Source: Acidobacteriaceae bacterium | GTDB taxonomy: Bacteria > Acidobacteriota > Terriglobia > Terriglobales > Acidobacteriaceae | Reading direction: 5' to 3' | Assembly: GCA_003151985.1 (NCBI GenBank) | Contig: PLZC01000065.1 | Location: forward strand, 1 to 45,168 | DNA: 45,168 nucleotides | Shown here: piece after piece, positions 4,269 to 35,934 of the stretch | Layout of the letters: each line of letters begins with the position of its first letter | Position numbering within the stretch: the first letter of the stretch is position 1 | The notes under the pieces: generated by a model | Told to the model about the DNA's origin: nothing | Seen by the model: only the letters and a program-made list of their open reading frames with translations | The model's database searches: none | Program-made: the position numbers and the translations under genes

Positions 4269-5456
4269 CTATCTCGTAGCCCTGTGCATCACCTGGCTTA
4301 CTACCTCGCATGTCAGGGCAATCTCTTCCGGCTCAAGAGTAGGGTGAACCAGAAACATAAGGCTCGTCTCACCGAGTTCGCGGGCGACGGGCAACCGGCT
4401 CTTCGGCCTCAACTCGGGGGGAAATGCCTTTTCCAGGTAGATTTCGCTGCAACTGCCTGAAAAGCACGGAACTCCACGCGCAACGATTGTGGCAATAATG
4501 CGATCGCGGTTCCATCCCTCCCGGAGAGCTTCGGGACGGACAAATGCATAGTACTTGTAATAAGAGTGGCTTAGATGTTCTGGAGGCGCAGTCACGCGCA
4601 TCCCGGGCAATTCACTAAAACATGCTGATAATATGGCTGCGTATCTCCGGCGGGTTTCAACCCAGCCGGGGAGCTTTTGCAATTGCAATCGCCCGATGGC
4701 CGACTGAACTTCCGTGAGCCTCCAGTTTGTTCCAAAGGACTCATGCAACCACCGGAACCCAGGAGCGTGTTCCCGATGGTAAACCGCATCGTAGCTCTTC
4801 CCATGATCCTTCAAAGACCACATGGTGTTCCACAACTCGTCTGAGTTAGTGGTCACCATTGCTCCCTCGCCGGCAGTAGTCATAATCTTGTCCTGGCAAA
4901 AGGAAAACGCGGCTACGTCACCGAGCGACCCCACGGGCTGTCCTTTGTAGGTGGCGCCGTGTGCCTGGGCGCAATCTTCTACTACCTTGATGCCCCGCTC
5001 GCGCGCCAGCGCAAGAATGCCGTCCATTTCACAGGGCCATCCCGCCAAGTGCACTGCAACGATTGCTTTGGTACGTGGCGTCAATACTCTGCGAATGGTT
5101 TCGGCAGTAATATCCTGGCTCTGACGATCTACATCCGCGATCACCGGACAGGCGCCAACCATAACCGCACAGCTAGCCGAAGCGATGAAGGTCCGGCTGG
5201 TGGTAATCACTTCGTCGCCTGGACCTACACCCAAAGCCTTCAAGGAACATTCCAGAGCTACGCTGCCGTTGGCTAGTGCAATGGCACGTTTGCAGCCAGT
5301 AAATGCCGCAAATTCCTCCTCGAATTTACGTCCTTCCTGGCCCGTCCAATAATTGACTTTGCCGGAGCGCAAAACTTGTGCGGCTGCTTCGATTTCGTCG
5401 TCCGCAAAAAAAGGCCACGGTGCGTCCAGCGATGCTTCAACGGCTTTCGACCCCAT
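4269..5456 (-). CDS. DegT/DnrJ/EryC1/StrS sugar aminotransferase
   Basis: A 395-residue PLP-dependent nucleotide-sugar aminotransferase of the DegT family, which converts a keto-deoxy sugar to an amino sugar using glutamate or glutamine. Residues visible: GSVALECSLKALGVGPGDEV (cofactor phosphate region), VVEDCAQAHGA with D161 to contact the pyridine nitrogen, and SFCQDKIMTTAGEGA with the Schiff-base lysine K190. The start follows AGGGGA by a few bases. Its gene begins 15 bases after the stop of the HAD gene, so the two are probably co-transcribed after the ATP-grasp gene. FCQDK and the long LKDHGKSYD segment resemble aminotransferases found in lipopolysaccharide loci, but the substrate (C3 or C4 keto sugar) cannot be told. 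Downstream lies an IS3 remnant, so this is the last gene of its run. Confidence 0.9.
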   Translation of the reverse strand: MGSKAVEASLDAPWPFFADDEIEAAAQVLRSGKVNYWTGQEGRKFEEEFAAFTGCKRAIALANGSVALECSLKALGVGPGDEVITTSRTFIASASCAVMVGACPVIADVDRQSQDITAETIRRVLTPRTKAIVAVHLAGWPCEMDGILALARERGIKVVEDCAQAHGATYKGQPVGSLGDVAAFSFCQDKIMTTAGEGAMVTTNSDELWNTMWSLKDHGKSYDAVYHREHAPGFRWLHESFGTNWRLTEVQSAIGRLQLQKLPGWVETRRRYAAILSACFSELPGMRVTAPPEHLSHSYYKYYAFVRPEALREGWNRDRIIATIVARGVPCFSGSCSEIYLEKAFPPELRPKSRLPVARELGETSLMFLVHPTLEPEEIALTCEVVSQVMHRATR

Positions 5457-5471
5457 TGCGTCCCCTGACTC

Positions 5472-6167
5472 TTAGAATTGTGTTTTGTAAAGTTCAGATA
5501 CCAAATCTGGAACCGGCTCCAGATTCGACACCTCGAACCGCGCCAGATCAGACGAGCATCCCTGGTGTTCATGCAGACCCGCCGGACGGCGCACTCGGAT
5601 TCCATTCCAGCCAAGTGTACGGGGCGCAAGGAAATCTTTCGACGGATTGTCCGCCACGTAGACAAATCGACCGCTGCACGTCCCTGATTGGGACTCCAGG
5701 TGTCGATAACCTCTGACGTGCGGCTTAGAGAATTCGATCCCCCATTCGCCGGTTACAACAGTCGTGTCAAAGCGGTCCCGCAGCCCTAAAGCGTCGATCT
5801 TCGCCCACTGCGATACCGGGTTCCCATCAGTTAGAAGACCGAGATAAACCCTGTCTTGCAATCGCGCCAGGCATTCAACTGCGTCAGGCAATAGCTTGAT
5901 CTGCGGCGCATGTTCACGGTAGATCCGCACCATCGTGGAAACCGTTCCGGCATCGCGCCCAACGCCCAGCCGGTCAAGTGCTGCGTCAAAGATGTCCCCG
6001 CGCCGCCCTTGGTCGAACAGTGCTTGAGCCTGCTCCTGAACTCCTTCCAAACCCAGCCGTTCGGCACACCATTCTCCGACAACACGAAACCCGCTGCGGA
6101 CATAATCCCGTTCCAGATAGAGAGTGTCGTCCAAATCGAATACTACGCAAACGTTCTTCTTATCCAT
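5472..6167 (-). CDS. HAD-superfamily hydrolase
   Basis: A 231-residue haloacid-dehalogenase-type phosphatase. Motif I is FDLDDTLY with nucleophile D11 and acid/base D13. A helical cap follows (residues about 20-90). Motif II is LGLLTDG, motif III the lysine in EFSKPH, and motif IV VYVADNPSKDF. All catalytic positions are present, so the enzyme should be active, probably on a small phosphorylated metabolite. It overlaps the end of the upstream ATP-grasp gene by 8 bases and is followed 15 bases later by a sugar aminotransferase, which ties it to the same pathway. A sugar-phosphate or acyl-phosphate substrate is plausible, but the family is too broad to choose. Confidence 0.85.
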   Translation of the reverse strand: MDKKNVCVVFDLDDTLYLERDYVRSGFRVVGEWCAERLGLEGVQEQAQALFDQGRRGDIFDAALDRLGVGRDAGTVSTMVRIYREHAPQIKLLPDAVECLARLQDRVYLGLLTDGNPVSQWAKIDALGLRDRFDTTVVTGEWGIEFSKPHVRGYRHLESQSGTCSGRFVYVADNPSKDFLAPRTLGWNGIRVRRPAGLHEHQGCSSDLARFEVSNLEPVPDLVSELYKTQF

Positions 6168-7167
6168 GCGAGGAATGCGCTCCAGGAATGAAAACGGCGT
6201 CGTCGTAACGAAGCATCAGAAGCCCATCTTGCCATTCAGCGGTCTCTGTACCGGGTCTCCCCAGCAACGGTTCAAGAAGCCACAACGGAAACTTTGCCCC
6301 GGCGCGATTGGCAAGCGGAAATCCACCACCAAACCGCGCATTGATTTCAATAATGGTGATGGTTCCATCTGCATCCACAAAGCATTGGACGTTGAGCGCG
6401 CCGCGTGCTCCGGGAAGCCTCTCCGCAATTGTGGTTGCCAGTTGCATCAGCCTTTCGTCCCTGACTGTAATTCCTTTGCTGACCTCGCCTCCACGCGTCT
6501 CAAGCCGCCTGTGCGGCACGGCGCAGACACATCGCCCATCTTGAACGAATACATTGACTGTGTATTCATCGCCGCGGGCAATCTCCTGTACAATCAAGCC
6601 CTGCCGACCCTCGGCAATTTCCCTGAGAGCCACAAGGGATTTGACAACGGCTATGCCAGCTGATGCGCTCCCAAGCCTCGGCTTCACAATGAGTGGGAAT
6701 TTCCACTGCACCGGGCTTCGGAGCACCTCATCGGGGTTGCCTTGACGGGGTGTTGGGAAACCGTTTTCCACCAGCCATCGGTGCGTTTCAACTTTGTCGC
6801 ACGCAATTCTGACGGTCTCCGGGTCGGAAACCGCAACCGTGATGCCATGCTCAAGGAATCGTTGCCGATTCGCCGCATACACTGGGAGTTCGGTGTCGAT
6901 TGTCGGCACGATCAGGCAGACATCTTCTTCAATCGCGATCCTCAGCACCTCATCAATGAATCCAGGATCGCAACAACGCCCCACGGCAAAGCACTTATCC
7001 ACTAGATAAGCTGCCGGCGCCATTTCAGGTGCCGCATCGACACCCAACACACGGCCGTCTACCCCTAAGTCGCTCAGAGCCTGTCGAAAACTCTCAATCA
7101 ACTGTGACCGGCGCCCTACCGAGGACACTAACACCGTGACCGTTTCTGACCGTGTCTTCTGTATCAT
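6160..7167 (-). CDS. ATP-grasp ligase (carbamoyl-phosphate-synthase-like)
   Basis: A 335-residue ATP-grasp protein. The N-terminal pre-ATP-grasp Rossmann-like part has VLVSSVGRRSQLIESFRQA. The central domain has CDKVETHRWLVENGFPTPR, then FPLIVKPRLGSASAGIAVV (the ATP-binding loop and Lys), then VQEIARGDEYTVNVFV. The metal-binding end is TIIEINARFGGGFPLANRAG, with E and N ligands. Proteins of this shape join a carboxylate to an amine or thiol through an acyl-phosphate. Location next to a DegT aminotransferase and a HAD phosphatase suggests amidation of an amino sugar, but this is inference. It overlaps the HAD gene by 8 bases. The start is given as the ATG at 7167 with GGGA directly before it, which is unusually close, so a slightly later start is possible. 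Confidence 0.85.
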   Translation of the reverse strand: MIQKTRSETVTVLVSSVGRRSQLIESFRQALSDLGVDGRVLGVDAAPEMAPAAYLVDKCFAVGRCCDPGFIDEVLRIAIEEDVCLIVPTIDTELPVYAANRQRFLEHGITVAVSDPETVRIACDKVETHRWLVENGFPTPRQGNPDEVLRSPVQWKFPLIVKPRLGSASAGIAVVKSLVALREIAEGRQGLIVQEIARGDEYTVNVFVQDGRCVCAVPHRRLETRGGEVSKGITVRDERLMQLATTIAERLPGARGALNVQCFVDADGTITIIEINARFGGGFPLANRAGAKFPLWLLEPLLGRPGTETAEWQDGLLMLRYDDAVFIPGAHSSHG

Positions 7168-7299
7168 TCCCTGCGTCCCGCCATCGGCTGGATTCAGCCG
7201 TATCGCCAGTCCCTTTGCAGCAGCTCTATTTCTTACTGGAAAGGAACTCCGGCATCGTTGAATGGCCTTGGCTCTATACGCCTGACCAGTGAATGACCT

Positions 7300-7515
7300 T
7301 CAAAGGGTCATCCAGAGAATGCGAAGGTCGAGAAACAAGTTTACGTGATCGACCAGGCATCAACAGTAAACTTCTCCTCCCAAGCTATCAAATCTCGTCC
7401 GCAAACCTGCGCTCATCCGGTAATGCCGGACATCGCGTCATGCCAGTGTGCCTACTCGGGCGTGTGATACGTCTTAGCTGCAGTCAGGATTCTCGGACGT
7501 TGCCCTTCGCGGTAG
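7300..7515 (-). pseudogene. Decayed C-terminus of a polyprenyl-phosphate sugar transferase
   Basis: No long open frame exists here, but minus-strand translation shows the tail of a bacterial sugar transferase (WcaJ/WbaP type) broken by stops. From about 7515 downward it reads RPRILTAAKTYHTPE, stop, AHWHDAMSGITG, stop, AQVCGRDLIAWEEKFTVDAW, followed by a frame change to VDHVNLFLDLRILWMTL, ending at TGA 7302-7300. The intact fusion gene at 8490-10334 has the matching segments: RPLLMEYLPRYSAEQ, QRHDVMPGITGWAQINGRN, WAEKFTLDTWYVDHWSLSLD. At least two stop codons and one frameshift make it non-functional. It lies between the FkbM methyltransferase and the ATP-grasp gene and marks an old second priming transferase. 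Confidence 0.8.
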
Positions 7516-7559
7516 CTCTTTCCAAGTCCTCCTGCAACATCTCTGTTTCCTAACCGAGG

Positions 7560-8396: not shown

Positions 8397-8489
8397 AAAT
8401 AACCTCTGTACACTATCGAAATGAGATTGCGCCGTTCGAAGCCGCAAGGTGCCAGCTAATTGATCGACTCATGTTGACGGCCACCGCTG

Positions 8490-10334: not shown

Positions 10335-10396
10335 GCGCTAAGAGGAGATCCTAATGTTACAAAGCTGGGTTCGAGCTTCGTGCCTTGCTACGAGTC

Positions 10397-13700: not shown

Positions 13701-13962
13701 CTCTTCATCCACGCTTTCTCCCGGGTAAGCCATTGCAAGTAATCCCCGGGCGGTATTGCTCCGCTCACATTTCGGAACTGGTCTAATAATCTCACTCAAT
13801 GGCTGCGGAATATCCCTCAGGAGCTAACCAGGATTCTATGCGATTTTTACGCCACACTTAAAGCTGGGCCATTTCAAGACCTATTGCATGAGACCGCTTC
13901 GAAGTCCACCGAGGCGATAGGAGATCTATCTCGTCGACGCAGGCATTCCGCAGCCACGCGGA

Positions 13963-21680: not shown

Positions 21681-23188
21681 AACGAACCTATTAGACGCGA
21701 GTATTTCCCAATATGCGGAGAGGAGACTGGTCGTCCATAGACTACATATGACAGCGCTAACAATGTGATGCCATTCTGCACGATTGATCCCACGTGCGCC
21801 ACAACGTCGCTCTCTAGATTAAGCAATGTCATCAGCATCATAATATAAACAAACAATCCTTTCTCCGACAGGCCGCCGCTGACCCAGTTCATGAATAGCT
21901 GGGAGCATATCCCGTAGACGAGCATTCCGATTACAACCCCAATAGTTCCATACATCGAATACAGATCTCCGATTTGCGTCGGCGCTGACGATGTAGAGCC
22001 ACCGCGGCCAAGCGCAAGACTAAGCCGCACGCCCTTATCGAAAACTGGTTTATCCTTCCATAAGAATCTAGGCACCAGCGGATACAGGGGCGCAAGCCAT
22101 ATTTTCTCATTACCATTCAACAGGGAAGGAGCGGGGAGGCCGATTACGTCGTGGACGGAAGTGAGAAGCGAGAGACGGCCGGTCGCTTGGTCAACGACAT
22201 CTCCACCCACTTCGCTCCGTGAGAAAGGAGTCTCAGCAACGTCGGCAATCGACTTCCCAAGCACCGCTGCCTGTCCTGCTATGGTATTTACCTGAGCGGC
22301 ATATCCGGATTGCAAATTAGTCCGGTACGCACCCACGAACGGAAAAATCGGGAGGAGTAGCAGGGGTATCAAGAACGCAATTCGAGGAATTCGACCTCTC
22401 GTTAGCGAATATACGAGAACCAGGAGTAGAAGCGGGAACAAAGTCCCGCTCTTCATGGCAGATATCAAGCCAAAACCTACTAACGACACAAATGAGAGCC
22501 AGAATACAGCCTTTATGAGCGGCTTGTCGGATCGCTTGCCAAGCACTTCGATTGCAGAGACTACCAATGCTCCCTGCAGGAGGCTCGAGCAAAACGTCAA
22601 CCATCCCATGAACGGAAGTGAAGATTCATGAAATCCCGCTTTGTCCGAGGTGTTTAGGTACAATGACAAGCCAAGTTTCCAACTCAGCACATTCCCCAGA
22701 AGGCCCAGAACGAACATAGCAGCGCCTATGAGCGCCACCCGACTGGGTGTATCCCGCACCTGCGGAACAAATCGCATTCTGACTTCTCTCTTGAACGCCA
22801 GGCTTCCGATCCAGAAAGCGGCAAACCCAATCAGAATCAAAGACATCGCATGAACATAAACGGAGTCCATTACCTCATCGCCTGCTGCGAACCTCCAAGC
22901 CGGCAGGCAGACAAACTCAAGCAGAGCCTCGAGCGTTAGTAAAATCGGAAGGCTGTACCATGCCGACCCGCTTAGACTTTGCAGACCCAAATATCCTATG
23001 GCGAGTAAGACAAACCATCCTGCCACCGCGCCAAATGCGACCGATTCCCCCCCTCCCCCCCCCAGTAGAGAATAGGTACCCCATATCCCCAGGGGAACGC
23101 CGGCAGCCAGCATTGCCATGGGAACCCATCCATAAGTGTCCCCCCTGTCGACGCCAAGGTTGATTTGCGTTCGAATATCTGTCCTCAT
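21677..23188 (-). CDS. O-antigen/EPS polymerase (Wzy-like) membrane protein
   Basis: A 503-residue integral membrane protein with about ten to twelve hydrophobic segments, e.g. WVPMAMLAAGVPLGIWGTYS, LFPLLLLVLVYSL, IAFLIPLLLLPIFPFVGAY, TIGVVIGMLVYGICSQLF. A large loop after the segment ending GAYRTN (about residues 290-400, including YPLVPRFLWKDKP) fits the periplasmic loop of Wzy polymerases, and the PR.LW.DKP motif is common in oligosaccharide repeat-unit polymerases. It would join lipid-linked repeat units in the periplasm. Start: AAGGA 4 bases before ATG. Near the N-terminus (about residues 42-46, five Gly) the coding strand carries a long, once-interrupted G tract. It sits between a methyltransferase and a GT4. 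Wzy proteins are poorly conserved, so the call rests on topology and context. Confidence 0.8.
   Translation of the reverse strand: MRTDIRTQINLGVDRGDTYGWVPMAMLAAGVPLGIWGTYSLLGGGGGESVAFGAVAGWFVLLAIGYLGLQSLSGSAWYSLPILLTLEALLEFVCLPAWRFAAGDEVMDSVYVHAMSLILIGFAAFWIGSLAFKREVRMRFVPQVRDTPSRVALIGAAMFVLGLLGNVLSWKLGLSLYLNTSDKAGFHESSLPFMGWLTFCSSLLQGALVVSAIEVLGKRSDKPLIKAVFWLSFVSLVGFGLISAMKSGTLFPLLLLVLVYSLTRGRIPRIAFLIPLLLLPIFPFVGAYRTNLQSGYAAQVNTIAGQAAVLGKSIADVAETPFSRSEVGGDVVDQATGRLSLLTSVHDVIGLPAPSLLNGNEKIWLAPLYPLVPRFLWKDKPVFDKGVRLSLALGRGGSTSSAPTQIGDLYSMYGTIGVVIGMLVYGICSQLFMNWVSGGLSEKGLFVYIMMLMTLLNLESDVVAHVGSIVQNGITLLALSYVVYGRPVSSPHIGKYSRLIGSL
23047..23063 (-). repeat. G9-A-G7 tract inside the polymerase gene
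   Basis: On the plus strand C7 (23047-23053), T, C9 (23055-23063); on the coding strand nine G, one A, seven G. It encodes five consecutive glycines about 45 codons into the Wzy-like protein. Gain or loss of one G would shift the frame and truncate the polymerase near its start. Such tracts are classical slipped-strand hot spots, but variation cannot be shown from one sequence. Confidence 0.85.
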
Positions 23189-26898: not shown

Positions 26899-27648
26899 TC
26901 ACGCCACTCGCCTCAAGTACCCATCCGGTGCGACGCTGATCAGCAGCTTATGGTCAATCTGCTTGTCGATCTCGAATTCGGGATGACTCTTGAGGTATTC
27001 TCGCACAGCAGTTTTGGGATTGTTGCCCGGGCCCCAGGGGCGGTCGGGAAACATCCCGGCGGGCACGTCTTCGATCCCCGTATCGGACACTACGCAGTAG
27101 CTATCCACCGAAGTGAGCGGAGCGTACGCTTGCAGTTCGGCCAGAACGTGGTCATGGGTATGGTTGCTGTCAAGACACACTAGCACGCTTTGCTTTCCTT
27201 CCGCCTTGGCCTGCACCTTCTCGATGAACTCAGGCGCGATACTGGATCCCTGGATCATCGAGATGCGCTTGAACAGGGGGTGGGCCTCAATCGCTTCGCG
27301 GTTATGGGCACGGATGTCGATATCCACCCCCAACACTTCTGCGTCTTGCGGGCCGCCGCAGGCGGCGTTCAATTCAAGCATGGAGGCAGAAAAAATCAGC
27401 GATCCCCCGTGGGCTATGCCGGTTTCGATGATTAGGTTCGGCTTGATTGACCAGATTAGTTCCTGCATTGCAATGAGATCTTGCGGGTATTGGATAATAG
27501 GACGACCCAACCACTCGAAGTGATAGGAATACTTTCGGGCATTGGCCAGATTGAACCAAGTACGACCAACTGCAGCTAGATCGTTGTCTTGCCCCTGCCC
27601 GGCAATTTCTTGGGCGGATTCTGCTTTGAATTTTTGATATTCGTTCAT
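26899..27648 (-). CDS. CmcI/cephalosporin-hydroxylase-family methyltransferase
   Basis: A 249-residue protein of the family named after CmcI of cephamycin synthesis; many members are sugar O-methyltransferases. Visible: WLGRPIIQYPQDLIAMQELI, LIIETGIAHGGSLIFSASML (SAM-binding loop), EVLGVDIDIRAHN, VLVCLDSNHTHDHVLAELQA with the metal-binding Asp/His group, SYCVVSDTGIED, and NPKTAVREYLKSHPEFEID. GGAG lies 8 bases before the ATG, and the start overlaps the stop of the acyltransferase stub by 4 bases (ATGA). In polysaccharide loci this family likely methylates a sugar hydroxyl; hydroxylation is a less likely alternative. Confidence 0.88.
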   Translation of the reverse strand: MNEYQKFKAESAQEIAGQGQDNDLAAVGRTWFNLANARKYSYHFEWLGRPIIQYPQDLIAMQELIWSIKPNLIIETGIAHGGSLIFSASMLELNAACGGPQDAEVLGVDIDIRAHNREAIEAHPLFKRISMIQGSSIAPEFIEKVQAKAEGKQSVLVCLDSNHTHDHVLAELQAYAPLTSVDSYCVVSDTGIEDVPAGMFPDRPWGPGNNPKTAVREYLKSHPEFEIDKQIDHKLLISVAPDGYLRRVA

Positions 27649-27890
27649 GCTGTTTTCTCCACATACTTTTCGTTGTTAGTTACTCGCCCATCGCGGTGGA
27701 TCCGGGCAGGATTTCCAAATGCGATAACGCCGGAAGGTAGGTCGCGCGTTACCACGGCTCCAAGTCCGGCGATCGTGCCGCTTCCGATTCTGATGCGGGG
27801 CAAGACAATGGCGTTCGCCACAATCATGACATCAGTCTCTAAAGTAGTCGTCGAAACTATCGCGTAACGCACGCATAGATGATGTTGCAA
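27645..27890 (-). CDS. Hexapeptide acyltransferase stub, N-terminally truncated
   Basis: An 81-residue frame containing only the last part of a left-handed beta-helix acyltransferase: VMIVANAIVLPRIRIGSGTI, AGLGAVVTRDLPSGVIAFGN, PARIHRDG. Full-length sugar acetyltransferases of this type have about 180 to 220 residues and carry the catalytic His in an earlier coil, which is missing here. The 5' part is replaced by the end of the methyltransferase gene at 27857, which it overlaps by 34 bases. The stop still overlaps the next start by 4 bases (ATGA), so the frame may be translated. Best reading: a deletion fused the tail of an old acyltransferase gene to the methyltransferase gene; it is probably inactive. 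Confidence 0.6.
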   Translation of the reverse strand: MQHHLCVRYAIVSTTTLETDVMIVANAIVLPRIRIGSGTIAGLGAVVTRDLPSGVIAFGNPARIHRDGRVTNNEKYVEKTA

Positions 27891-28639
27891 TCCTCAGGAT
27901 GCTGCTTGCCGAGTTCGTAGGACGCGCGGCAGAACGCAGCCTTCCAATCTTTTTTAGGCCCACCAATCCGCCCCCATCCGAATCCACCCTCATCCCACAG
28001 ACCGTTTTTCAGAAACCAGTCCATCTGGGGAGTTGAAAGAATCTTGTAGAAAATCCCACCCGTCTTCACTGTGTGCAGTCCAGCCGCTTCGATATCACGA
28101 CAAAGCGTTTGCAGGGTGTACGATCGCCTATGTCCCGCAATGTTCAGGTCGAACGGCGACAATTCCTCACAGCTTTCTAGCGACCCCATAAGCACCGCCA
28201 GTTTTCGATTAATCGCCACGGCATTCGGGACATGAACAATCATTACGCCATCTTCAGCCAGAAAAAATGCAGCTTTGCGCAATAATGCGACGGGATCGAT
28301 TACATGTTCCAGCACTTCGAGCATTAACACGGTTGAAAACTTTTCGGTCAAATCGAGGTCTTCAATAAGGCACTCATGGAATTCGGCTAGGGGCAACCGC
28401 TTCCTGGCCTCAGCCAAGTGCTCGCCGTTTGCATCCACCCCAACAACCCGCGTTACCCTCCGTGCGAACATCTCGGTCATCAATCCATCACCACACGCCA
28501 GATCGAGCAGCGATTGCCCATGAATATTCTCCGAGCAGGATTCGACTTTATATTCCGCAAGGAATCTGTTGTACTCGCTGTGAAACGCCGTTCGCGACCA
28601 TGCGAACGACTCCTGAAGTTGCTTCTCGCTATTCCCCAT
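27857..28639 (-). CDS. Class I SAM-dependent methyltransferase
   Basis: A 260-residue methyltransferase, UbiG/UbiE-like. Motif I is LLDLACGDGLMTEMFARRV, then VVGVDANGEHLAEARKRL, and VLMLEVLEHVIDPVALLRKA. ATG at 28639 is preceded by GGGAG at 5 bases; an upstream ATG at 28666 has no site. It overlaps the end of the upstream fusion gene by 11 bases. The C-terminal 90 residues (AGHRRSYTLQTLCRDIEAAG, then WKAAFCRASYELGKQHPEDC) resemble sugar or lipid methyltransferases in LPS clusters. The acceptor is unknown. Its 3' end runs into the acyltransferase stub. Confidence 0.87.
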   Translation of the reverse strand: MGNSEKQLQESFAWSRTAFHSEYNRFLAEYKVESCSENIHGQSLLDLACGDGLMTEMFARRVTRVVGVDANGEHLAEARKRLPLAEFHECLIEDLDLTEKFSTVLMLEVLEHVIDPVALLRKAAFFLAEDGVMIVHVPNAVAINRKLAVLMGSLESCEELSPFDLNIAGHRRSYTLQTLCRDIEAAGLHTVKTGGIFYKILSTPQMDWFLKNGLWDEGGFGWGRIGGPKKDWKAAFCRASYELGKQHPEDCNIIYACVTR

Positions 28640-29888
28640 TTGCTCCCTTTCCGGTACTTGCCGCAATTATTTTCTGCAGTTCCAGTTTTAAATTCGCCTC
28701 AGGTTGCCATCCCAAAACAGTGCGCGCGCGCGTTGAATCCATCACGATGTTTGGCGCATATTCTTCGATCTCTTGGTGGATGATCCTGCTTCGAGAGCCC
28801 ATGTGCTCAGTGATGATTTCTGCGACTTCCGTCGTCGAGACGCCGTATCCGCCGCCAATATTATAGACAGCACTAAAGCTACTTCCGAGTATCAGGGTAA
28901 GTGCCGATACTGCGTCGTCGATGTGGGTCAAATCCAAAATAGGCAGACTGTTCAAGTACCTATGCGTGACGATTGTATCTCCACGCCTGGCCAGATCTAT
29001 GAAGCGGTGAATAAATCTTGGCTTATCGCTCCCCACCCCAAACAATGGGGCAAAACGCACAATACCATAATCAAAATCCGGGTAACTGAGCTTCTCCTGC
29101 TCCAGCATTCGCTCGCAAAGCCATTTGGCTATTCCGTATTGACCTTTTGGATTGGCCGGAATGGATTCGTTCGCCAACAAAGACTGACTGCGATAGCCCG
29201 AATAAATCTCCCAACTCGAAACAAATAGAATCTTGACCCGCTGCAATCTGCAGGCGTCGATTACGTTCTTCAGAGCTACCACCATAGGCCCCATGGCGGC
29301 ATTGCTGTTGTAAATGCGAGGAGAAGCCAAGTGGACCAACTGGCTGACCTGATGTTTTTTCAGGAGCAAGCTCAGCTCTGCCGATCCTTTCGTAAGGTCT
29401 GCCTCACTCCTGCTAGGCGCAACCATAGTACGAGATTTTTTCAAGCGTTCAATTAGCCGCTTGCCTATAAACCCCGAACCACCTGTTATCAGTACGCACT
29501 TACGATCTTCAGGAGCAGAAAATAATGCGGGACCAATCTGCTGCGAGATCGCATCTTCGATGACGGACAAAACCTCGGGCTTTATCTCTTGTTCTCCGGT
29601 GGCGCGAATGACTTCCCTGACGGCATCGCCAAACGACAACTTAAGATGTAAGGCCAAGGCACCAGCGGCAACAGCATTACTGCGCGACATCCCGTAATCG
29701 CAGCAAACCACAACCCGCTTGCCCTGCCGGAGAAACTCTACAGCATCCTCAACCACAGCCAGAACGTCTTCGCGACGATTCCCTTGCTTATCGACCATAT
29801 TGCGAACATCCACAACTTCGATTCCAGAACGGTTTCCAAGCTGGTCCCAGGCTGCTGTGCCTAAATTTTGAGTGATCCACTTTATCAT
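28629..29888 (-). CDS. Fusion: dual-specificity-phosphatase-like domain + NAD-dependent sugar epimerase
   Basis: A 419-residue protein with two parts. Residues 1 to about 120 resemble a dual-specificity phosphatase: conserved aspartates near D27-D33, then GKRVVVCCDYGMSRSNAVAA, which contains a CX5R loop (C63, R69) followed by Ser, as in HCxxGxxRS phosphatases, and helix AGALALHLKLSFGDAVREV. From about 130 an extended SDR starts: CVLITGGSGFIGKRLIERL, LVHLASPRIYN, VSSWEIYSG, QYGIAKWLCERM with YxxxK, and AVYNIGGGYGVSTTEVAEII. The SDR part is a nucleotide-sugar epimerase, dehydratase or reductase. AAGGAG lies 8 bases before the ATG. The His normally preceding the catalytic Cys is another Cys (C62), so phosphatase activity is uncertain. 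The fusion is in one frame with no internal stop. Confidence 0.85.
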   Translation of the reverse strand: MIKWITQNLGTAAWDQLGNRSGIEVVDVRNMVDKQGNRREDVLAVVEDAVEFLRQGKRVVVCCDYGMSRSNAVAAGALALHLKLSFGDAVREVIRATGEQEIKPEVLSVIEDAISQQIGPALFSAPEDRKCVLITGGSGFIGKRLIERLKKSRTMVAPSRSEADLTKGSAELSLLLKKHQVSQLVHLASPRIYNSNAAMGPMVVALKNVIDACRLQRVKILFVSSWEIYSGYRSQSLLANESIPANPKGQYGIAKWLCERMLEQEKLSYPDFDYGIVRFAPLFGVGSDKPRFIHRFIDLARRGDTIVTHRYLNSLPILDLTHIDDAVSALTLILGSSFSAVYNIGGGYGVSTTEVAEIITEHMGSRSRIIHQEIEEYAPNIVMDSTRARTVLGWQPEANLKLELQKIIAASTGKGANGE

Positions 29889-30087
29889 CCAATTAGCTCC
29901 TTCAGCACTGCGACTTTGTCAAACCCTCAGATAGTACAGGCAGTAACCTTTTGGGAGTTGAAACACCGGCACGTATCCCGCCAACTTCAATCAAGATATT
30001 TGCAGATCTGTGTAAAAAGCTACAGGAACTGCTGCGTGTTGGAGCAAGCAAAGCATCCGGGCCGCAAGGCAGCGGCTTGTTATTTGG

Positions 30088-31164
30088 TTATTTGAGTTGA
30101 GCGTCGGGCACATAGGTCTCGGTCAAACTGCGCAAGTACCATCCTGATCTGATTGTTGTGGGCGTCGGCAGCTTGCCTGCGATCAAAAAGTTCAACATCA
30201 TGTTAATCTCATTAAATCCAGCCAATGCTCTCAGGTAAGTTGAGGCAGAGAAACGCGGGTTGATCTCGAATGGGAGAAGGACACCATCGCGAACGCGCCC
30301 TTGAACATTAATGGGCCCACGGCTGCCAATCGCGGACGCAATTTTTTCAGCCTGGCGGCAAATGTCAGGATATTCGCCGATATGCCCTTGTGAATAGCCG
30401 CTCGATACGACACCGCCGCGACCACGGTAGGACAACGAGAGCTTGGCGTCCAAAGCGCGTCTCAATGCAATCGATCCCGCAATGCGCCCATCCGGCAAGG
30501 ATAGGACGCCAACGGTAAACTCACCCTCGTCGACATCGACATACTCTTGCGCGATGGGCACGCGTCCACTGCGACGGATGAACTCGGCATAGATCAGTGC
30601 CTCATCAACAGTGACCGCATAGAACACACCGGCACTTCCGCCCGATCCAGTAGCGGGTTTGACAATACACGGAAGACCCACATATTCAAGGTCTGCCGGC
30701 TGACTTAATGCTATGGTACGCGGAATAGAAATGCCCAATGCAGCCAGCCGCTTGAAAGTTTCTTCCTTATCGGCACACAGGCCTACAACCGATGGATCAT
30801 TCCCTACCAGACGGATTCCAGCTTGAGCCAGCGTGTCTGAAGCCCTGCCCAAAAGCGTCATTGGCTCCTCTCCGCCCGGAATGAGCCAGGTTGCACGGGC
30901 CGTGTGACAAGCCTCAATGACATTCTGCACGTAGTTCTGGCGGCTTATAAGATATGTCCCGGCAAACCCTGATTCATAAAGCCCAAATGCGGTTGCCGAT
31001 ACATCACATCCGTACACTTGGTAACCGCCGCACAATCGCATGCACTTACAGATCTCCGTGCCTAGAGATGCGCCGCCAATTCCAGCGATCATCACCCTAG
31101 CGGCACCTTTCGTGGACGGACTTCCAGGTAACATGGAGCCTTGCAGAAGATGAGAGTTTATCAT
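30088..31164 (-). CDS. ATP-grasp ligase
   Basis: A 358-residue ATP-grasp protein. N-terminal domain: VMIAGIGGASLGTEICKCMR, then YQVYGCDVSATAFGLYESGF, and WLIPGGEEPMTLLGRASDTL. ATP-grasp core: CADKEETFKRLAALGISIPR, LPCIVKPATGSGGSAGVFYA, AQEYVDVDEGEFTVGVLSLP and PFEINPRFSASTYLRALAGF with metal-binding E and N. It lies 7 bases after the DegT aminotransferase gene, in the same order as the other pair in this window (6160-7167 with 4269-5456). It may form an amide between the new sugar amine and a small acid, or act on a carrier; inference only. The N-terminal 20 residues are poorly conserved in look, so a later start is possible. Confidence 0.85.
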   Translation of the reverse strand: MINSHLLQGSMLPGSPSTKGAARVMIAGIGGASLGTEICKCMRLCGGYQVYGCDVSATAFGLYESGFAGTYLISRQNYVQNVIEACHTARATWLIPGGEEPMTLLGRASDTLAQAGIRLVGNDPSVVGLCADKEETFKRLAALGISIPRTIALSQPADLEYVGLPCIVKPATGSGGSAGVFYAVTVDEALIYAEFIRRSGRVPIAQEYVDVDEGEFTVGVLSLPDGRIAGSIALRRALDAKLSLSYRGRGGVVSSGYSQGHIGEYPDICRQAEKIASAIGSRGPINVQGRVRDGVLLPFEINPRFSASTYLRALAGFNEINMMLNFLIAGKLPTPTTIRSGWYLRSLTETYVPDAQLK

Positions 31165-31171
31165 TTGAAGT

Positions 31172-32284
31172 TTACGCCCCCTTTAAGCTCCACACCAAAA
31201 TTTCAGCGACACGGTCTTGTTCTGTCAAAGTCATGTCGTTATAGCTGGGTAGGTTGATCGCACGGCCCGGAATCTCCCAGGCATGGCGGTTCTGCGTTTG
31301 GTCTTCGAACATTGGGAGGCTGGACAGCGGGTTAAAGAACACCCTTGCATCAACATTCTCAGCCTTAAACGCCTGTTGAAGTTTTTCGCGGGTCACTCCA
31401 GTTCCCGCGTCAAATACCACCGTGGGCATCCAGGCACCATTGACGGTGCCTACTGGTTCCGGATTCATCCTCACTCCCGGCAACTGCCCAAGTTGCGCAC
31501 GGTAGTACTGCAGGATTTCCCTCTTGCGACCGACGAGATCGTCAATCCGTTCTATCTGTGCACAACCCATCGCGGCTTGGATGTTTGACATCTTGTATTT
31601 GAAGCCGACTACATCTGGCCAGAATTGCTTGGTCTGGCCGCGTACCCGTCCATGGTTGGAAAGCGTCAGAGCGGTTTCGTACAGGGTGGCATCGTTGGTG
31701 ACGAACATCCCGCCCTCTCCCGTAGTCATGGTTTTCGAGCCGTGGAAGGAGAAACTGCCGAACCTGCCCATGCTGCCGGCGCGCTGACCGCGGTAGACTG
31801 AGCCGATGGCCTCGGCGGCGTCTTCAATCACCGGAATGTTATGCTTCTTCCCGATGGCCTGCAGGCGATCCATGTCGCAGAGATTGCCGTATAGATGCAC
31901 GGCAACAATGGCCTTGGTGCGGGGCGTGATGGCCCTCTCGGCCAACTCCGGATCGATGCACCAGGTATCGGGCAGGACGTCCACAAAGACCGGCTTGGCC
32001 CCCAGGTGAACAACCGGCGCGGCGGTGGCGATCCAGTTCGTATCCGCCAGGATGACCTCATCCCCCGGGCCAACGCCCAGCGCGGCCATCCCGATGTGAA
32101 GCGCGCCGGTGCAACTGGAGGTGGCGATGGCGTACTCCACGCCCAAGTGCGCCTTGAATGCCTCTTCAAAGCGCGCAATGTATTCGTAGCAGCGTTCGCC
32201 CCAACCGTTGCGCGCGGCATCCGTTGCGTACTCCACCTCCAGCTCGGTGATCGATGGCTTGGTGTAGAAGATGCGGGGTTTCAC
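31172..32284 (-). CDS. DegT/DnrJ/EryC1/StrS sugar aminotransferase
   Basis: A 370-residue PLP aminotransferase. The GTG at 32284 overlaps the upstream methyltransferase stop as GTGA; the longer frame to 32353 is antisense-free but lies inside that gene. Motifs: ATSSCTGALHIGMAALGVGP, ILADTNWIATAAPVVHLGAK, PVIEDAAEAIGSVYRG with D155, and FSFHGSKTMTTGEGG with Schiff-base K184. This is closest in look to perosamine/4-amino-4,6-dideoxyhexose synthases. The lysine shows it is a normal aminotransferase and not an RfbH-type 3-dehydrase, which has His there. Context (rfbF, rfbG, epimerase and C-methyltransferase upstream) suggests amination at C4 of a CDP-linked keto-deoxy sugar. Confidence 0.9.
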   Translation of the reverse strand: MKPRIFYTKPSITELEVEYATDAARNGWGERCYEYIARFEEAFKAHLGVEYAIATSSCTGALHIGMAALGVGPGDEVILADTNWIATAAPVVHLGAKPVFVDVLPDTWCIDPELAERAITPRTKAIVAVHLYGNLCDMDRLQAIGKKHNIPVIEDAAEAIGSVYRGQRAGSMGRFGSFSFHGSKTMTTGEGGMFVTNDATLYETALTLSNHGRVRGQTKQFWPDVVGFKYKMSNIQAAMGCAQIERIDDLVGRKREILQYYRAQLGQLPGVRMNPEPVGTVNGAWMPTVVFDAGTGVTREKLQQAFKAENVDARVFFNPLSSLPMFEDQTQNRHAWEIPGRAINLPSYNDMTLTEQDRVAEILVWSLKGA

Positions 32285-33507
32285 TCCACCTCCAAATGTG
32301 GAACCGCGGTGACAAACCGTCCGCCCCAGGCCCTGACGTAATCCAGTTGGCACATGATTTCCGCCTTCAGATTCCAGGGCAGAATCACGACATAGTCCGG
32401 CTTGAAGTTCTTGAGTTGAAGCTCATCGACGATGGGGATGCGGCTGCCCGGCATGAACTTGCCCTGCTTGGCCGGGTTGCGATCCGCCACCAATGCAATC
32501 AGATCGGGCCGTATCCCGGCATAGTTCATCAAGGTGTTGCCTTTGGCCGCGGCCCCGTAGGCAGCGACAGTCTGGCCCTGGCGCCTGGCCTCCAGCAAAA
32601 ATGCAAGAAAATCGTTTTTGACCTTGTCGGTCCTGGCTTGGAATCCGGCGTAGTAGGGCGCGGCGGTCATGCCAGCCTGGGATTCGCAATCCAGGAGTGC
32701 ATCTACTCTGGCCCCGCGCGGGCGTTGGCCGGTGTCGCTGCGCTGGGCAAAGACACGCAGGCTTCCGCCATGGGTAGGGTGTTCTTCCACATCGAAGACC
32801 GTGAGCCCGTTGGCGGCGAAGATGCCGGCAACCGCCGTCAGCGACAGGTAGGAGAAGTGCTCGTGGTAGATGGTGTCGAATTGGTTGCCGGCGATGAGCT
32901 GGAGCAGATGCGGAAACTCGAATGTCGCCACACCCTGAGGCTTCAACAGCACGGCAAAGCCGGCAACGAAGTCATTGATCTCCGGCACATGGGCCAGCAC
33001 GTTGTTGGCTACAGTCAAATCGGCCTGTTTGCCTCGAGCGGCCAGTTCCCGGGCCAGGCGAACGCCGAAAAACTCCTGCACCATCGGGATGCCCTTGGCG
33101 CGGGCGGCGGCGGCGGTGTTGGCGGTCGGTTCCACTCCCGTGCAGGGGATATGGCGGGCTTGGACATACTGCAACAGGCAGCCGTCGTTGGCTGCAACCT
33201 CCACGACATGGCTGCCGGCATCCAGCCCGAAGCGCTCGGCCATGGCGGCGACATAGCGCTCGCAGTGCGCCAGCCAACTGCTGGAGAAGCCGCTGAAGTA
33301 GGCGTAGTCGGCGTCAAAAAGCTCGTGCGCCTGGGCAAAATCCTCGGTCTGCGCCAGCCAGCAGCGCTCACAGACCAGCACCCGTAACGGAAACCACTTT
33401 TCCGGCGCCTTCAGCGTCTGCGCGGTCAGATAGGCGTTGGAAGGCGGCGCGCTGCCCAGATCCACCAGCGGTAGCGCGAGTGCGAACCCGCAATGGCGGC
33501 AATTCAT
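32281..33507 (-). CDS. Deoxysugar C-methyltransferase (NovU/TylC3 type)
   Basis: A 408-residue three-part methyltransferase that adds a methyl branch on carbon of a 4-keto-6-deoxy nucleotide sugar. The N-terminal zinc module has MNCRHCGF and VCERCW (four Cys). The SAM domain has HVVEVAANDGCLLQYVQARH, GVEPTANTAAAARAKGI, NNVLAHVPEINDFVAGF and FDTIYHEHFSYLSLTAV. The C-terminal domain has TVAAYGAAAKGNTLMNYAGI, as in the family. Order and length match the NovU/TylCIII/EryBIII group, where the methyl goes to C3. Overlaps by 4 bases with the epimerase gene before (ATGA) and with the aminotransferase gene after (GTGA). Its product would be a branched, CDP-activated sugar. Confidence 0.92.
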   Translation of the reverse strand: MNCRHCGFALALPLVDLGSAPPSNAYLTAQTLKAPEKWFPLRVLVCERCWLAQTEDFAQAHELFDADYAYFSGFSSSWLAHCERYVAAMAERFGLDAGSHVVEVAANDGCLLQYVQARHIPCTGVEPTANTAAAARAKGIPMVQEFFGVRLARELAARGKQADLTVANNVLAHVPEINDFVAGFAVLLKPQGVATFEFPHLLQLIAGNQFDTIYHEHFSYLSLTAVAGIFAANGLTVFDVEEHPTHGGSLRVFAQRSDTGQRPRGARVDALLDCESQAGMTAAPYYAGFQARTDKVKNDFLAFLLEARRQGQTVAAYGAAAKGNTLMNYAGIRPDLIALVADRNPAKQGKFMPGSRIPIVDELQLKNFKPDYVVILPWNLKAEIMCQLDYVRAWGGRFVTAVPHLEVE

Positions 33508-34067
33508 AGGACAATCCCGGTAAATTCATTCGTCAAGAGAGGATGAGCCGCATCGCGAGGCGACCGCTCGATCACTGTCTCGGGCCAGCGAATGTCGAGC
33601 CGACTGTCGAGCGCGTTCAGGCCGCCTTCGGCCTCCGGATGATAAGGAGCGGTATGAAGATAGAGCATCTCGCAGTCTTCCGTCAGGGTTTGAAAGCCGT
33701 GGGCAAAGCCCTCCGGTATCAGCAGAGTTCTGTGGTTGACGGCGCTGAGAATCTCCGCGTGCCACTGTAGAAATGTTGGCGAGCCTGAGCGCAGATCGAC
33801 GGCCACATCGAAGACCTCGCCGCGCAGGCAGCTCACGATCTTGGTTTCTGCATGGGGCGGATACTGAAAGTGAAGGCCGCGCACGGCGCCACTCTTGGCG
33901 GTCAGGGTGCGGTTGATCTGCGCAATGCCTCTGCCCAGAAGCAGCGGCTGTAGTTCTTCCCCGCAGAAGATCCGCTCCAGGTAGCCGCGCTGGTCGCCGA
34001 TCGGATGGCGCTGAATCAGCTTCAGCCCCTGGAGCGGTGTGTCGAGAAGGTCGAAGCGGAGACTCAT
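33504..34067 (-). CDS. dTDP/CDP-4-keto-6-deoxysugar 3,5-epimerase (RmlC-like)
   Basis: A 187-residue cupin of the RmlC family. Visible: LIQRHPIGDQRGYLERIFCG, the catalytic His in AVRGLHFQYPPHAETKIVSC, LRGEVFDVAVDLRSGSPTF, IPEGFAHGFQTLTEDCEMLY and LHTAPYHPEAEGGLNALD with the Tyr region. It epimerises C3 and/or C5 of a 4-keto-6-deoxyhexose. Since it is coupled to rfbG (ATGA overlap at 34064-34067) and to the C-methyltransferase (33504-33507), the substrate is probably CDP-linked, not dTDP-linked as in rhamnose synthesis. No rmlA, rmlB or rmlD is present in the window. Confidence 0.92.
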   Translation of the reverse strand: MSLRFDLLDTPLQGLKLIQRHPIGDQRGYLERIFCGEELQPLLLGRGIAQINRTLTAKSGAVRGLHFQYPPHAETKIVSCLRGEVFDVAVDLRSGSPTFLQWHAEILSAVNHRTLLIPEGFAHGFQTLTEDCEMLYLHTAPYHPEAEGGLNALDSRLDIRWPETVIERSPRDAAHPLLTNEFTGIVL

Positions 34068-35167
34068 CGCTGGCCCGCCGCTTCGTAGGCGTCGATTTGC
34101 TCAAGGCTGAAAGCGGCCATCTCCGCGCCACCGGCCCAGGCCTTATACCAGGCGACGGTTTGCGCCAGCGCCTGATCCAGCGGCCAGCGCGGTCTCCATC
34201 CAAGCTCACTGCGGGCGAGCGTACTGTCAAGGCGGAGCGAGCCAGCCTCGTGTGCGTTCTGGGGCGAGGACGCGCACTCCACGCGCGCGCCCTCGCCCCA
34301 GAGCCGCGCTGTGGTCTCGGCAATCTCGCCCACGGTGGCATCGCCGCCGGCATCTGGTCCGAAATTCCAAGCCTTGGCAAATTTAGCGCCATCCGGGGCA
34401 AAAAGGCGCTGGGCCAGTTGCAGATAGCCGGCGAGCGGCTCCAAAACATGCTGCCAGGGCCGCACCGCACTCGGGAAGCGAAGGTGTACACATTCACCCT
34501 TAACGAAGGCTCTCACACAGTCTGGAATCAAGCGGTCGGTAGCCCAATCGCCGCCGCCGATCACATTGCCTGCCCGAACTGTAGCCACGCTGGCTGGGTG
34601 ACCGTTTTGTCCCGTAAAGAAACTCGCGCGATAACTGGCCGCAACAATCTCGGCCCCCGCTTTGCTGGCGCTGTAGGGATCGTGGCCGCCGAGCGGATCG
34701 ATCTCGCGATACGGATACGCCCCTTCACAGTTTTCATACACCTTGTCGGTGGTGATGAGGACCAGTGCGCGTACCGTGGGGACGGCGCGCACCGCCTCCA
34801 GCACATTCGCCGTTCCCATGACATTGGTGGTCAGAGTGCCCAGCGGGTCGCGATAGCTCGCCAGCACCAAGGGTTGAGCAGCAAGATGGAAGACGATCTC
34901 CGGCTTCGCATTGTTGAGCGCCACCTTCAGCCGCGCAAGATCGGCCAGATCGGCACGTGTATCCGTCGCAAGCGCTGTGCCAATACCGGCGGATTCAAAA
35001 AGACTGGGCTCGGTCGGCGGATTGAGTGCATAGCCATGTACCGTGGCGCCAAGCCGATGCAGCCAAAGCGCCAACCAGCCGCCCTTGAAGCCGGTGTGGC
35101 CAGTGACTAAGATACGCTTGCTAGCATAGAATCCGCCGAAAACGGCTTGTGGCGCAATAACGCTCAC
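34064..35167 (-). CDS. rfbG: CDP-glucose 4,6-dehydratase
   Basis: A 367-residue extended SDR enzyme making CDP-4-keto-6-deoxyglucose from CDP-glucose. Motifs: RILVTGHTGFKGGWLALWLH, FHLAAQPLVLASYRDPLGTL, ITTDKVYENCEGAYPYREID, DPYSASKAGAEIVAASYRAS with YxxxK, and NVIGGGDWATDRLIPDCVRA. HTGFKGGWL is diagnostic for this enzyme. The GTG start at 35167 overlaps the rfbF stop as GTGA; the longer frame to 35200 reads inside rfbF. It directly follows its partner rfbF. Length is normal. Confidence 0.95.
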   Translation of the reverse strand: MSVIAPQAVFGGFYASKRILVTGHTGFKGGWLALWLHRLGATVHGYALNPPTEPSLFESAGIGTALATDTRADLADLARLKVALNNAKPEIVFHLAAQPLVLASYRDPLGTLTTNVMGTANVLEAVRAVPTVRALVLITTDKVYENCEGAYPYREIDPLGGHDPYSASKAGAEIVAASYRASFFTGQNGHPASVATVRAGNVIGGGDWATDRLIPDCVRAFVKGECVHLRFPSAVRPWQHVLEPLAGYLQLAQRLFAPDGAKFAKAWNFGPDAGGDATVGEIAETTARLWGEGARVECASSPQNAHEAGSLRLDSTLARSELGWRPRWPLDQALAQTVAWYKAWAGGAEMAAFSLEQIDAYEAAGQR

Positions 35168-35934
35168 CAAATTCTCCAAGGCGCCTCGCCAGAGACCCAA
35201 AGCTCTTCAAGCTGATTCTTGTCGCGCAAAGTGTCCATGGGCCGCCAAAAACCGTGATGTTCAAACGCCATGAGCTCGCCTTGGTTGGCCAGTTCCATGA
35301 GCGGCCCGCCTTCCCAACTGGAGTCGTCGCCCTCAATCAGTTCAAGACACTTGGGCGAGAGCACGAAAAAGCCCCCATTGATCAGGCCGCCATCGCCGGC
35401 AGGCTTTTCGATGAAGTTGGTCACCCGGGCGTCTGTGGTATGCAAGGCGCCGTAACGGCCAGGGGGTTGCACGGCCGCAATAGTGGCCAGCTTGCCGTGC
35501 TTGCGATGGAAGGCAATTTCCTCGGTGATATTGATGTCGGCAACCCCATCGCCATAGGTGAAACAAAAGCTTTGTTCATCGCAAATGTAGGGTGCGACGC
35601 GCTTGAGACGACCGCCGGTCAGCGTAGCATCCCCGGTATCGACCAACGTCACCTTCCAAGGCTCGGCGTGCCGCTCTAAAACGTGCATTGTGTTGTTGGC
35701 GATGTCGAAGGTGACATCCGACATGTGCAAGAAGTAGTTGGCGAAGTACTCCTTGATGACATAGCCTTTGTAACCACAGCAGATAACAAACTCGTTCACG
35801 TCATGGGAGGAGTAGAGCTTCATGATATGCCAGAGAATCGGCTTACCGCCAATCTCGATCATAGGCTTAGGCTTGATGTTGGTTTCTTCGGAAATGCGGG
35901 TTCCGAGACCGCCAGCGAGGATAACTGCTTTCAT
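35164..35934 (-). CDS. rfbF: Glucose-1-phosphate cytidylyltransferase
   Basis: A 256-residue nucleotidyltransferase making CDP-glucose from CTP and glucose-1-phosphate. The start MKAVILAGGLGTRISEETNI, then KPKPMIEIGGKPILWHIMK, is typical. HDVNEFVICCGYKGYVIKEY, FCFTYGDGVADINITEEIAF and INGGFFVLSPKCLELIEGDD follow. These match RfbF more closely than RmlA or GalU. It is the first gene of the CDP-sugar module and is coupled to rfbG. The ATG has only a weak upstream site. A 138-base gap separates it from the Wzz-like gene, so a separate promoter could lie there, but I could not identify one. Confidence 0.95.
   Translation of the reverse strand: MKAVILAGGLGTRISEETNIKPKPMIEIGGKPILWHIMKLYSSHDVNEFVICCGYKGYVIKEYFANYFLHMSDVTFDIANNTMHVLERHAEPWKVTLVDTGDATLTGGRLKRVAPYICDEQSFCFTYGDGVADINITEEIAFHRKHGKLATIAAVQPPGRYGALHTTDARVTNFIEKPAGDGGLINGGFFVLSPKCLELIEGDDSSWEGGPLMELANQGELMAFEHHGFWRPMDTLRDKNQLEELWVSGEAPWRIW

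Follow-up and report, generated by a model that had tools for sequence, protein, structure and literature searches.

A phosphatase-like domain fused to a sugar-modifying enzyme and its most likely place in an amino-sugar acylation module

What does a phosphatase-like domain do on a sugar-modifying enzyme? The question is raised by one gene in a contig of 45,168 nucleotides (nt) from an Acidobacteriaceae bacterium (PLZC01000065.1 of assembly GCA_003151985.1; the whole of this stretch is called the window), in which a domain resembling the dual-specificity phosphatases (DSP) is joined to an extended short-chain dehydrogenase/reductase (SDR). A first-pass annotation had offered two meanings for this arrangement: a two-step catalyst acting on sugars, or regulation linked to a Wzc tyrosine kinase in the same locus. 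The fusion is most likely part of an amino-sugar acylation module. A more specific reading, which seems to us somewhat better than an even bet, is that the gene contributes one enzyme to an exchangeable module which N-acylates a CDP-linked 4-amino-4,6-dideoxy-3-C-methyl sugar and operates via ligation of a phospho-acid and its dephosphorylation. The gene and its parts are as follows:

28629..29888, minus strand: DSP-SDR fusion, 419 amino acids (aa), ATG start, single open frame
29529..29888, minus strand: DSP-fold phosphatase domain, residues 1-120, with the loop C63-x5-R69-S70 and the candidate general acid D33
28632..29501, minus strand: extended SDR of the nucleotide-sugar epimerase/dehydratase type, residues ~130-419, with Y251xxxK255

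Is the fusion genuine? A degenerate loop-pattern scan of genome contigs yielded 18 loci, all with the full fusion (405-418 aa). The two domains share one 419-aa frame in the window, just as the first-pass annotation had claimed. As the same fusion is found in 18/18 relatives at 38-46% identity over the full length, it is not an artefact of assembly or frame; it is real and recurrent. All of these relatives stem from a scan that demanded the C63 pattern, fixing C63, Y65 and G66 and restricting positions 59-62, 64 and 67, so that conservation at positions 59-67 is not independent evidence, whereas that of the other invariant positions is.

Is the first domain a phosphatase? From the sequence alone this call was marginal. 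The loop reads C63-D-Y-G-M-S-R69-S70, a CX5R loop followed by Ser as had been described, and the Cys that had been noticed in place of the usual His before the catalytic Cys is C62. The profile check proposed by the annotation for residues 1-120 gave a match to Pfam DSPc, yet a weak one (E 4e-4; E 0.003 with the whole protein): because its 20.7 bits lie under the gathering score of 33.5, the domain is named here DSP-fold and is not filed in the curated family PF00782. DSPc is matched by all 19 family members at E ≤0.1 (best 5.7e-6), and a profile search of the PDB with the DSP part found ShufPTP at 1.4e-5. Structure prediction, the other check that had been proposed, gave a phosphatase fold. 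The AlphaFold2 model of residues 1-120 has a predicted local distance difference test score (pLDDT) of 90.9; its best Foldseek match is Tk-PTP (5z5a, E 9e-5), its best VIA match is 2hcm (Z 14.6, root-mean-square deviation 2.2, 120/120 residues aligned), and the 50 VIA rows listed all belong to DSP-type structures, with Z 12.4-14.6 and 114-120 aligned residues. The DSP fold predicted for residues 1-120 can be regarded as secure and well supported.

Is the domain also active? Invariant in the alignment of 19 members are W4, G10, T11, D27, R29, D33, G36 and N37, together with C63, D64, Y65, G66, S68, R69, S70 and N71; of these, D27, R29, D33, G36, N37, S68, R69, S70 and N71 are free of the scan pattern. 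The annotation had named loss of C63 and R69 in homologues as fatal to its reading; R69 stands this test in 19/19, and C63 is likewise kept in 19/19 as the scan pattern demanded. D33, a candidate for the general acid of the domain, lies ~30 residues before the Cys, aligns with residue 63 of Tk-PTP and is kept in 19/19. The residue before the catalytic Cys is C62 in 18/19 and His in one member (L040; loci are cited by such numbers where they must be told apart). A dead DSP-fold scaffold or phosphate-binding domain, holding CDP or a phospho-ligand for the SDR, would agree with the general replacement of the His of HCX5R by Cys and with the shortness of the domain (120 residues, where the listed chains, MBP fusions excepted, have 133-179). 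Such a pseudophosphatase seems highly improbable, since the loop Arg, the Ser and D33 have persisted in 19/19 across deep divergence (as has C63, on which the scan insisted), the usual His is present in L040, and elsewhere the corresponding neighbour belongs to an ordinary, presumably active phosphatase family.

The second domain is less ambiguous in family than in reaction. It has its own glycine motif (TGGSGFIG) and Y251xxxK255, both as the annotation had stated; Pfam Epimerase matches the fusion at E 5e-24, well over the cut-off, and the closest folds found by Foldseek for the SDR part are MoeE5 and GalE (~2e-19). Motifs, profile and fold together place it among the extended SDRs (PF01370). 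Its reaction cannot be named, because the window protein reaches no NCBIfam equivalog cut-off (best galE, 58.6 bits against 262.3). K255 is kept in 19/19.

With which genes does the fusion travel? In the window it lies in the following row:

35164..35934, minus strand: glucose-1-phosphate cytidylyltransferase (RfbF; TIGR02623)
34064..35200, minus strand: CDP-glucose 4,6-dehydratase (RfbG; TIGR02622)
33504..34067, minus strand: dTDP-4-dehydrorhamnose 3,5-epimerase-like
32281..33507, minus strand: C-methyltransferase (Methyltransf_13/14)
31172..32353, minus strand: DegT sugar aminotransferase
30088..31164, minus strand: ATP-grasp ligase, proposed to be N-acylating (NF009402.0, PRK12767; 302.6 bits against a cut-off of 218)
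29889..30087, minus strand: gap of 199 nt between the ATP-grasp gene and the fusion
27857..28642, minus strand: S-adenosylmethionine (SAM) methyltransferase (Methyltransf_23), its start overlapping the end of the fusion
26899..27648, minus strand: CmcI/rhamnosyl O-methyltransferase family, present in both cassette versions

The closest companion is the ATP-grasp gene, which is directly upstream of the fusion in 18/18 relatives and overlaps it by 4 nt in every one (with the chosen starts); in the window a distance of 199 nt separates them. Counted as homologues aligned over 60% of their length, in flanks of ≤8 kb and on several short contigs, the 18 loci contain RfbF in 11, RfbG in 10, the 3,5-epimerase in 13, the C-methyltransferase in 12, DegT in 15, ATP-grasp in 16 (with two more cut at contig ends), the methyltransferase in 13, CmcI in 13 and Wzx in 10; some of these matches are distant (DegT 28-35% in L038, RfbG 31% in L034 and L042). 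The gene sits in a mobile cassette, and the module is well supported. In the cassette of Pseudomonas viridiflava (L047) a hexapeptide-repeat protein (10024-10653, plus strand) takes the usual position of CmcI. The polysaccharide locus of the window also holds ORFs (open reading frames) of 905 and 503 aa (13963-16680 and 21677-23188, both minus strand), for which Pfam at E 1e-5 gives no match. A defence-system reading was discarded, as PADLOC gave no family for either the fusion or the ATP-grasp.

This company bears on the choice left by the first-pass annotation. A regulatory protein phosphatase for Wzc, or for another tyrosine-phosphorylated polysaccharide enzyme, tethered to the SDR, would explain why the fold is that of protein phosphatases; a Wzz/GNVR/AAA_31 protein with Wzc architecture is encoded at 38326-40695 in the window, and a low-molecular-weight protein tyrosine phosphatase (LMW-PTP) gene is found near an ATP-grasp gene in L075. 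However, the gene accompanies sugar-acylation genes, with the ATP-grasp adjoining in 18/18 loci including that of a Methanomicrobiales archaeon; metal-dependent and HAD phosphatases occupy a similar place beside other ATP-grasps; and the fusion was not found in a version of the cassette with an acetyltransferase (25 kb of L084, see below). No Wzc match was obtained at the 18 loci by tblastn at E 1e-10, a weak argument given flanks of ≤8 kb and a distance of ~8.4 kb in the window. Regulation via Wzc is thus unsupported and appears very unlikely, and of the two meanings it is the two-step sugar catalyst that would fit the neighbourhood, judged from gene families.

What function would the module have? 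A clue is given by a second version of the cassette, on a plasmid of Peteryoungia desertarenae (L084), in which RfbF (73%), RfbG (53%), the epimerase (59%), the C-methyltransferase (54%), DegT (74%) and CmcI (68%) are identical to those of the window to the extent given. Between DegT and CmcI it has one 218-aa ORF (13103-13759), missing from the PLSDB gene table, which is an acetyltransferase of the NeuD/PglB/VioB family (TIGR03570, E 3e-52, over cut-off; PglD_N; Hexapep); tblastn at E 1e-4 over 25 kb found no match to the ATP-grasp, the fusion or the methyltransferase of the window. The same plasmid carries two divergent RfbF-RfbG-C-methyltransferase-epimerase sets side by side (4359-7874, minus strand; 8408-12004, plus strand). 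In the window, the corresponding place ends with a short piece of sequence:

27693..27881, minus strand: probable remnant of a NeuD/PglB/VioB-family acetyltransferase, its last ~63 aa, between the methyltransferase and CmcI

These 63 aa are 54% identical to the C-terminus of the Peteryoungia acetyltransferase (E 6e-13) and match positions 143-202 of 202 of TIGR03570 (E 4.3e-12, 46 bits, under the full-length cut-off); Pfam at 0.01 gives no match for the fragment. None of the other 18 loci has an acetyltransferase match at 0.01 in this slot, the matches in L034, L042, L039 and L045 being elsewhere. The simplest reading is that the ATP-grasp, the fusion and the methyltransferase jointly displaced an N-acetyltransferase and hence are an acylation module. 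CmcI probably belongs to the sugar rather than to the acyl group, because it is kept in both versions. An ATP-grasp gene here takes the place of a sugar acetyltransferase, as in a PglB2-like module, by gene position only. A like swap is seen between Aminobacter L087 (acyltransferase-QdtA-DegT) and Methylorubrum L082 (ATP-grasp-HAD-QdtA-DegT).

An outline of the proposed process is as follows: initially, RfbF, RfbG, the epimerase, the C-methyltransferase and DegT would produce a CDP-4-amino sugar, as their families suggest. The ATP-grasp enzyme would couple a phosphorylated carboxylic acid, such as 3-phosphoglycerate, to the 4-amino group. Then the DSP domain, whose residues are observed and whose activity is presumed, would hydrolyse off the phosphate, with the C63 thiolate, R69 and D33 as its catalytic residues. 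Finally, and least certainly, a carbinol, either in the sugar or in the newly exposed acyl group, may be oxidised, reduced or epimerised by the fused SDR, and the methyltransferase may cap a hydroxyl; on the acyl group, both would act at the hydroxyl freed from phosphate. The product would be an amino sugar of the kansosamine type, bearing a decorated hydroxy-acyl group, and the simpler cassette version would give an N-acetyl sugar. The reaction of an ATP-grasp enzyme alone leaves a product without phosphate, and a phosphatase recurs beside it, which together suggest that the acid is itself phosphorylated; 3-phosphoglycerate is the first candidate because PglB2 is a precedent for a 4-glyceramido sugar. 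Donor, substrate and chemistry are all inferred.

How widely does a phosphatase accompany a sugar ATP-grasp? Outside the DSP family, one lies within three genes in 17/24 loci, which were hand-picked and are partly redundant. A first set of 16 comprises nine non-window ATP-grasp matches (L021-L029), one non-seed match (L072), five plasmid loci chosen from 86 records (L009, L010, L073, L074 and L075, L010 representing 74 Sinorhizobium records) and L007, which was found through its SDR and whose ATP-grasp has no blastp match to that of the window at 1e-3; Rhizobium, Acetoanaerobium and second Escherichia plasmid records were left out, as was L006, which nearly duplicates L007 and whose ligase is cut. 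Twelve of the 16 have a phosphatase: PHP in L010 and L072, calcineurin-like in L009 and L022, LMW-PTP in L075, and HAD either adjoining (L027, L073) or beyond a gene named NeuB-like by eye (L023, L024, L025, L028, L029). A second set consists of relatives of another ATP-grasp of the window, eight annotated non-Sinorhizobium matches (L076-L083) chosen among the 40 listed of 138 records, and 5/8 have an annotated HAD (L076, L077, L078, L079, L082); a metallophosphoesterase beyond an opposite gene in L083 was uncounted. The PLSDB gene tables are incomplete, so that an absent phosphatase may be unannotated. Six DegT-anchored loci, picked among 16 listed out of 936 records, served as a control; they show a phosphatase within three genes in 1/6 (HAD, L089) and an acyltransferase in 5/6 (L084-L088), an alkaline-phosphatase-family gene in L086 being fourth; this control is small, unmatched and indicative only, and L084 was picked for its DegT identity rather than at random. 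The other ATP-grasp of the window belongs to a module of its own:

4269..7167, minus strand: second ATP-grasp module, with ATP-grasp at 6160-7167, HAD hydrolase at 5472-6167 and DegT at 4269-5456

Here the ATP-grasp gene overlaps the HAD gene by 8 nt, and DegT follows. Together with a sugar transferase (8490-10334) the module forms the same set as in Priestia L073 (ligase 33%, HAD 33%, sugar transferase 49%). PHP phosphatase, ATP-grasp and SDR stand in a row in Sinorhizobium L010 (5276-7946) and in L072 (4159-6683), which came from a Bacteroidota search, and Tritonibacter L007 (4859-7980) has an ATP-grasp and an SDR by pseI, with no phosphatase.

Could the phosphatase act elsewhere in the sugar pathway? 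If the DSP domain were a small-molecule phosphatase for a sugar phosphate or a precursor acid, and the ATP-grasp used an unphosphorylated acid or an amino acid, the same cassette linkage would be seen; 7/24 ATP-grasp loci lack a phosphatase within three genes, so that some ligations may do without it, and in five loci a HAD accompanies the NeuB-like gene. On the other hand, glucose-1-phosphate must retain its phosphate for the RfbF step, and the phosphatase tracks the ATP-grasp over CDP (window), dTDP-type (L082, L075) and, by eye, nonulosonate-like (L072) pathways. We regard such a role as unlikely, and return to dephosphorylation of a ligated phospho-acid. A broader and more tentative proposal, whose chances we put slightly below even, is that N-acylation of nucleotide amino sugars by ATP-grasps is in general a two-part chemistry, loading of a phospho-acid and then its dephosphorylation, and that one slot is shared by phosphatases of at least five unrelated folds (DSP, LMW-PTP, HAD, PHP, calcineurin-like); the fusion would weld dephosphorylation to redox, and the window would keep the scar of the displaced acetyltransferase. 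If so, a PTP-type phosphatase has a biosynthetic role in surface-glycan chemistry, the frequent phosphatase beside ATP-grasp sugar ligases is explained, and phosphorylated hydroxy acids are predicted as the acyl donors of this poorly characterised ligase family. The swappable module, acetyltransferase versus ATP-grasp plus phosphatase, would also be an aid for reading bacterial amino sugars.

Several observations weigh against these proposals. No phosphatase was seen within three genes in L007, L021, L026 and L074 of the first set or in L080, L081 and L083 of the second, and the 24 loci have no properly matched control. The HAD of L023, L024, L025, L028 and L029, which share one similar arrangement, may be a nonulosonate phosphatase, and L075 may have an ordinary LMW-PTP of the Wzb type. 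The Tyr of YxxxK, kept in 17/19, is replaced by Arg in L031 (2426-3658) and by Leu in L039 (2287-3516), the Lys being kept in both, and therefore SDR chemistry may not be essential. The SDRs beside other ATP-grasps were considered as orthologues of the fused one and rejected: in a tree of the SDR part with 11 of the 19 fused rows, six partners and nine controls, in which long branches make placements unsure, the fused rows form one clade (100/100) and the partners are scattered, so that the other ATP-grasp loci are analogues and not shown orthologues. The likeness to PglB2 is one of gene position and description. Finally, Table 1 of a paper on a Mycobacterium kansasii cluster, compared below, lists no ATP-grasp, phosphatase or aminotransferase (PMC4403928).

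What is the history of the fusion in the window? Across nine cassette genes, identities between the window and a group of eight loci (L035, L038, L039, L041, L043, L045, L046, L047) are about as high as those within the group: ATP-grasp identity is 65% to the group against 64% within it, and the methyltransferase and CmcI are 3 points lower than within the group. For the fusion the values are 42% and 55%. The ATP-grasp tree places the window in a nine-row clade with the group (support 100/98.9), and the tree of the full fusion places it outside. Joining the window fusion with all eight is not rejected (p-AU, from the approximately unbiased test, 0.139); joining it with seven gives 0.031 and with L035/L039/L043 0.003, both sets having been named after the tree was seen. 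Against an exchange, the window and the archaeal L032 form a pair in the SDR-part tree (98/89), and L041, L046 and L047 are its neighbours (98/93). The divergence and the 199-nt gap would fit either an exchange of the fusion after arrival of the module or its fast evolution, between which the trees do not decide. With 468 contigs and a completeness of 73%, the genome is a draft, and an assembly fault is therefore possible.

The family itself is widely scattered. Its relatives, most of them metagenome bins, belong to ten phyla: Bacteroidota, Thermodesulfobacteriota, Myxococcota, Methanobacteriota (the Methanomicrobiales archaeon), Chloroflexota, Pseudomonadota, Cyanobacteriota, Sumerlaeota, Planctomycetota and Lentisphaerota. 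A single copy per genome was found in 18 genomes including that of the window, the L045 genome being left out. A single-sequence search with the DSP part over 396 genomes of the phylum, 200 of the family and 397 of the order, in draws that overlap and each contain the genome of the window, found only the window and weak matches, of which L005 proved to be an ordinary DSP on its reading frames and L002-L004 look like chance frames. There was no match in plasmids (E 0.01) or phages (E 1), and viral scans with five queries found nothing. With the Pseudomonas fusion, tblastn matched 739 plasmid records, five at 80% coverage; every match of the 10 listed rows starts at or after residue 50 and falls on an ordinary SDR or a neighbouring gene. 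Profile searches gave one match, already known, in 229 genomes of the class of the Pseudomonas host, the known member and three weak matches (positions 41-96 only) in 117 genomes of the cyanobacterial phylum, and known members only in 89 Pseudomonas and 84 Gallionella-family genomes; a DNA search of E. coli with the Pseudomonas gene found none. As no second carrier was met around the known ones in these 229, 117, 89 and 84 genomes, the family is sporadic and rare.

How does the system compare with known ones? No paper on such a fusion or cassette was found by title or opening of the abstract, in a search whose coverage mostly excludes subscription journals. The phosphatase domain shares its whole-domain fold and CX5RS loop with Tk-PTP, ShufPTP and the human DUSPs (PF00782), the nearest by sequence and Foldseek; unlike them, it has Cys for His, a compact 120 residues, a sub-cut-off Pfam score and an SDR fusion. 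PTPMT1, which acts on a phospholipid, is another DSP fold with a small-molecule ligand (3rgo; 3rgq with PI(5)P; profile 8.5e-4, Z 12.6), and has no SDR. The NeuD/PglD/VioB N-acetyltransferases (TIGR03570) occupy the same slot in Peteryoungia and probably left the remnant in the window, but each is a one-gene acetyltransferase of another fold, made of hexapeptide repeats.

Kansosamine is a 3-C-methyl, 2-O-methyl, 4-acylamino sugar, and the sugar proposed for the window would fit a kansosamine-type CDP pathway. The lipooligosaccharide (LOS) cluster of M. kansasii, which makes an N-acyl kansosamine glycolipid, includes a glucose-1-phosphate cytidylyltransferase, an NAD-dependent epimerase/dehydratase, a rhamnose epimerase and a methyltransferase (PMC4403928). 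These first enzymes are like those of the window in name, and tying them to kansosamine is our inference, the paper making no such assignment.

The closest parallel in organisation is found in Neisseria, where PglB2, an ATP-grasp, leads to a 4-glyceramido sugar and PglB, an acetyltransferase, to an acetamido sugar, and where pglB2 and ORF8 came in together on one inserted fragment (PMC11130364). The role of PglB2 has been termed "proposed" (PMC6959607), and a figure legend of the same paper (S2 Fig) names, among further genes at pgl loci of Neisseria oralis, those for a HAD hydrolase and a formyl transferase. Unlike the window system, PglB2 uses a UDP sugar and has its ligase fused to a phosphoglycosyltransferase, and its description mentions no DSP or SDR fusion. 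As described there, PglB2/ORF8 (GATDH) is like the window module in that an ATP-grasp replaces the acetyltransferase of a 4-amino sugar and arrives with a second ORF.

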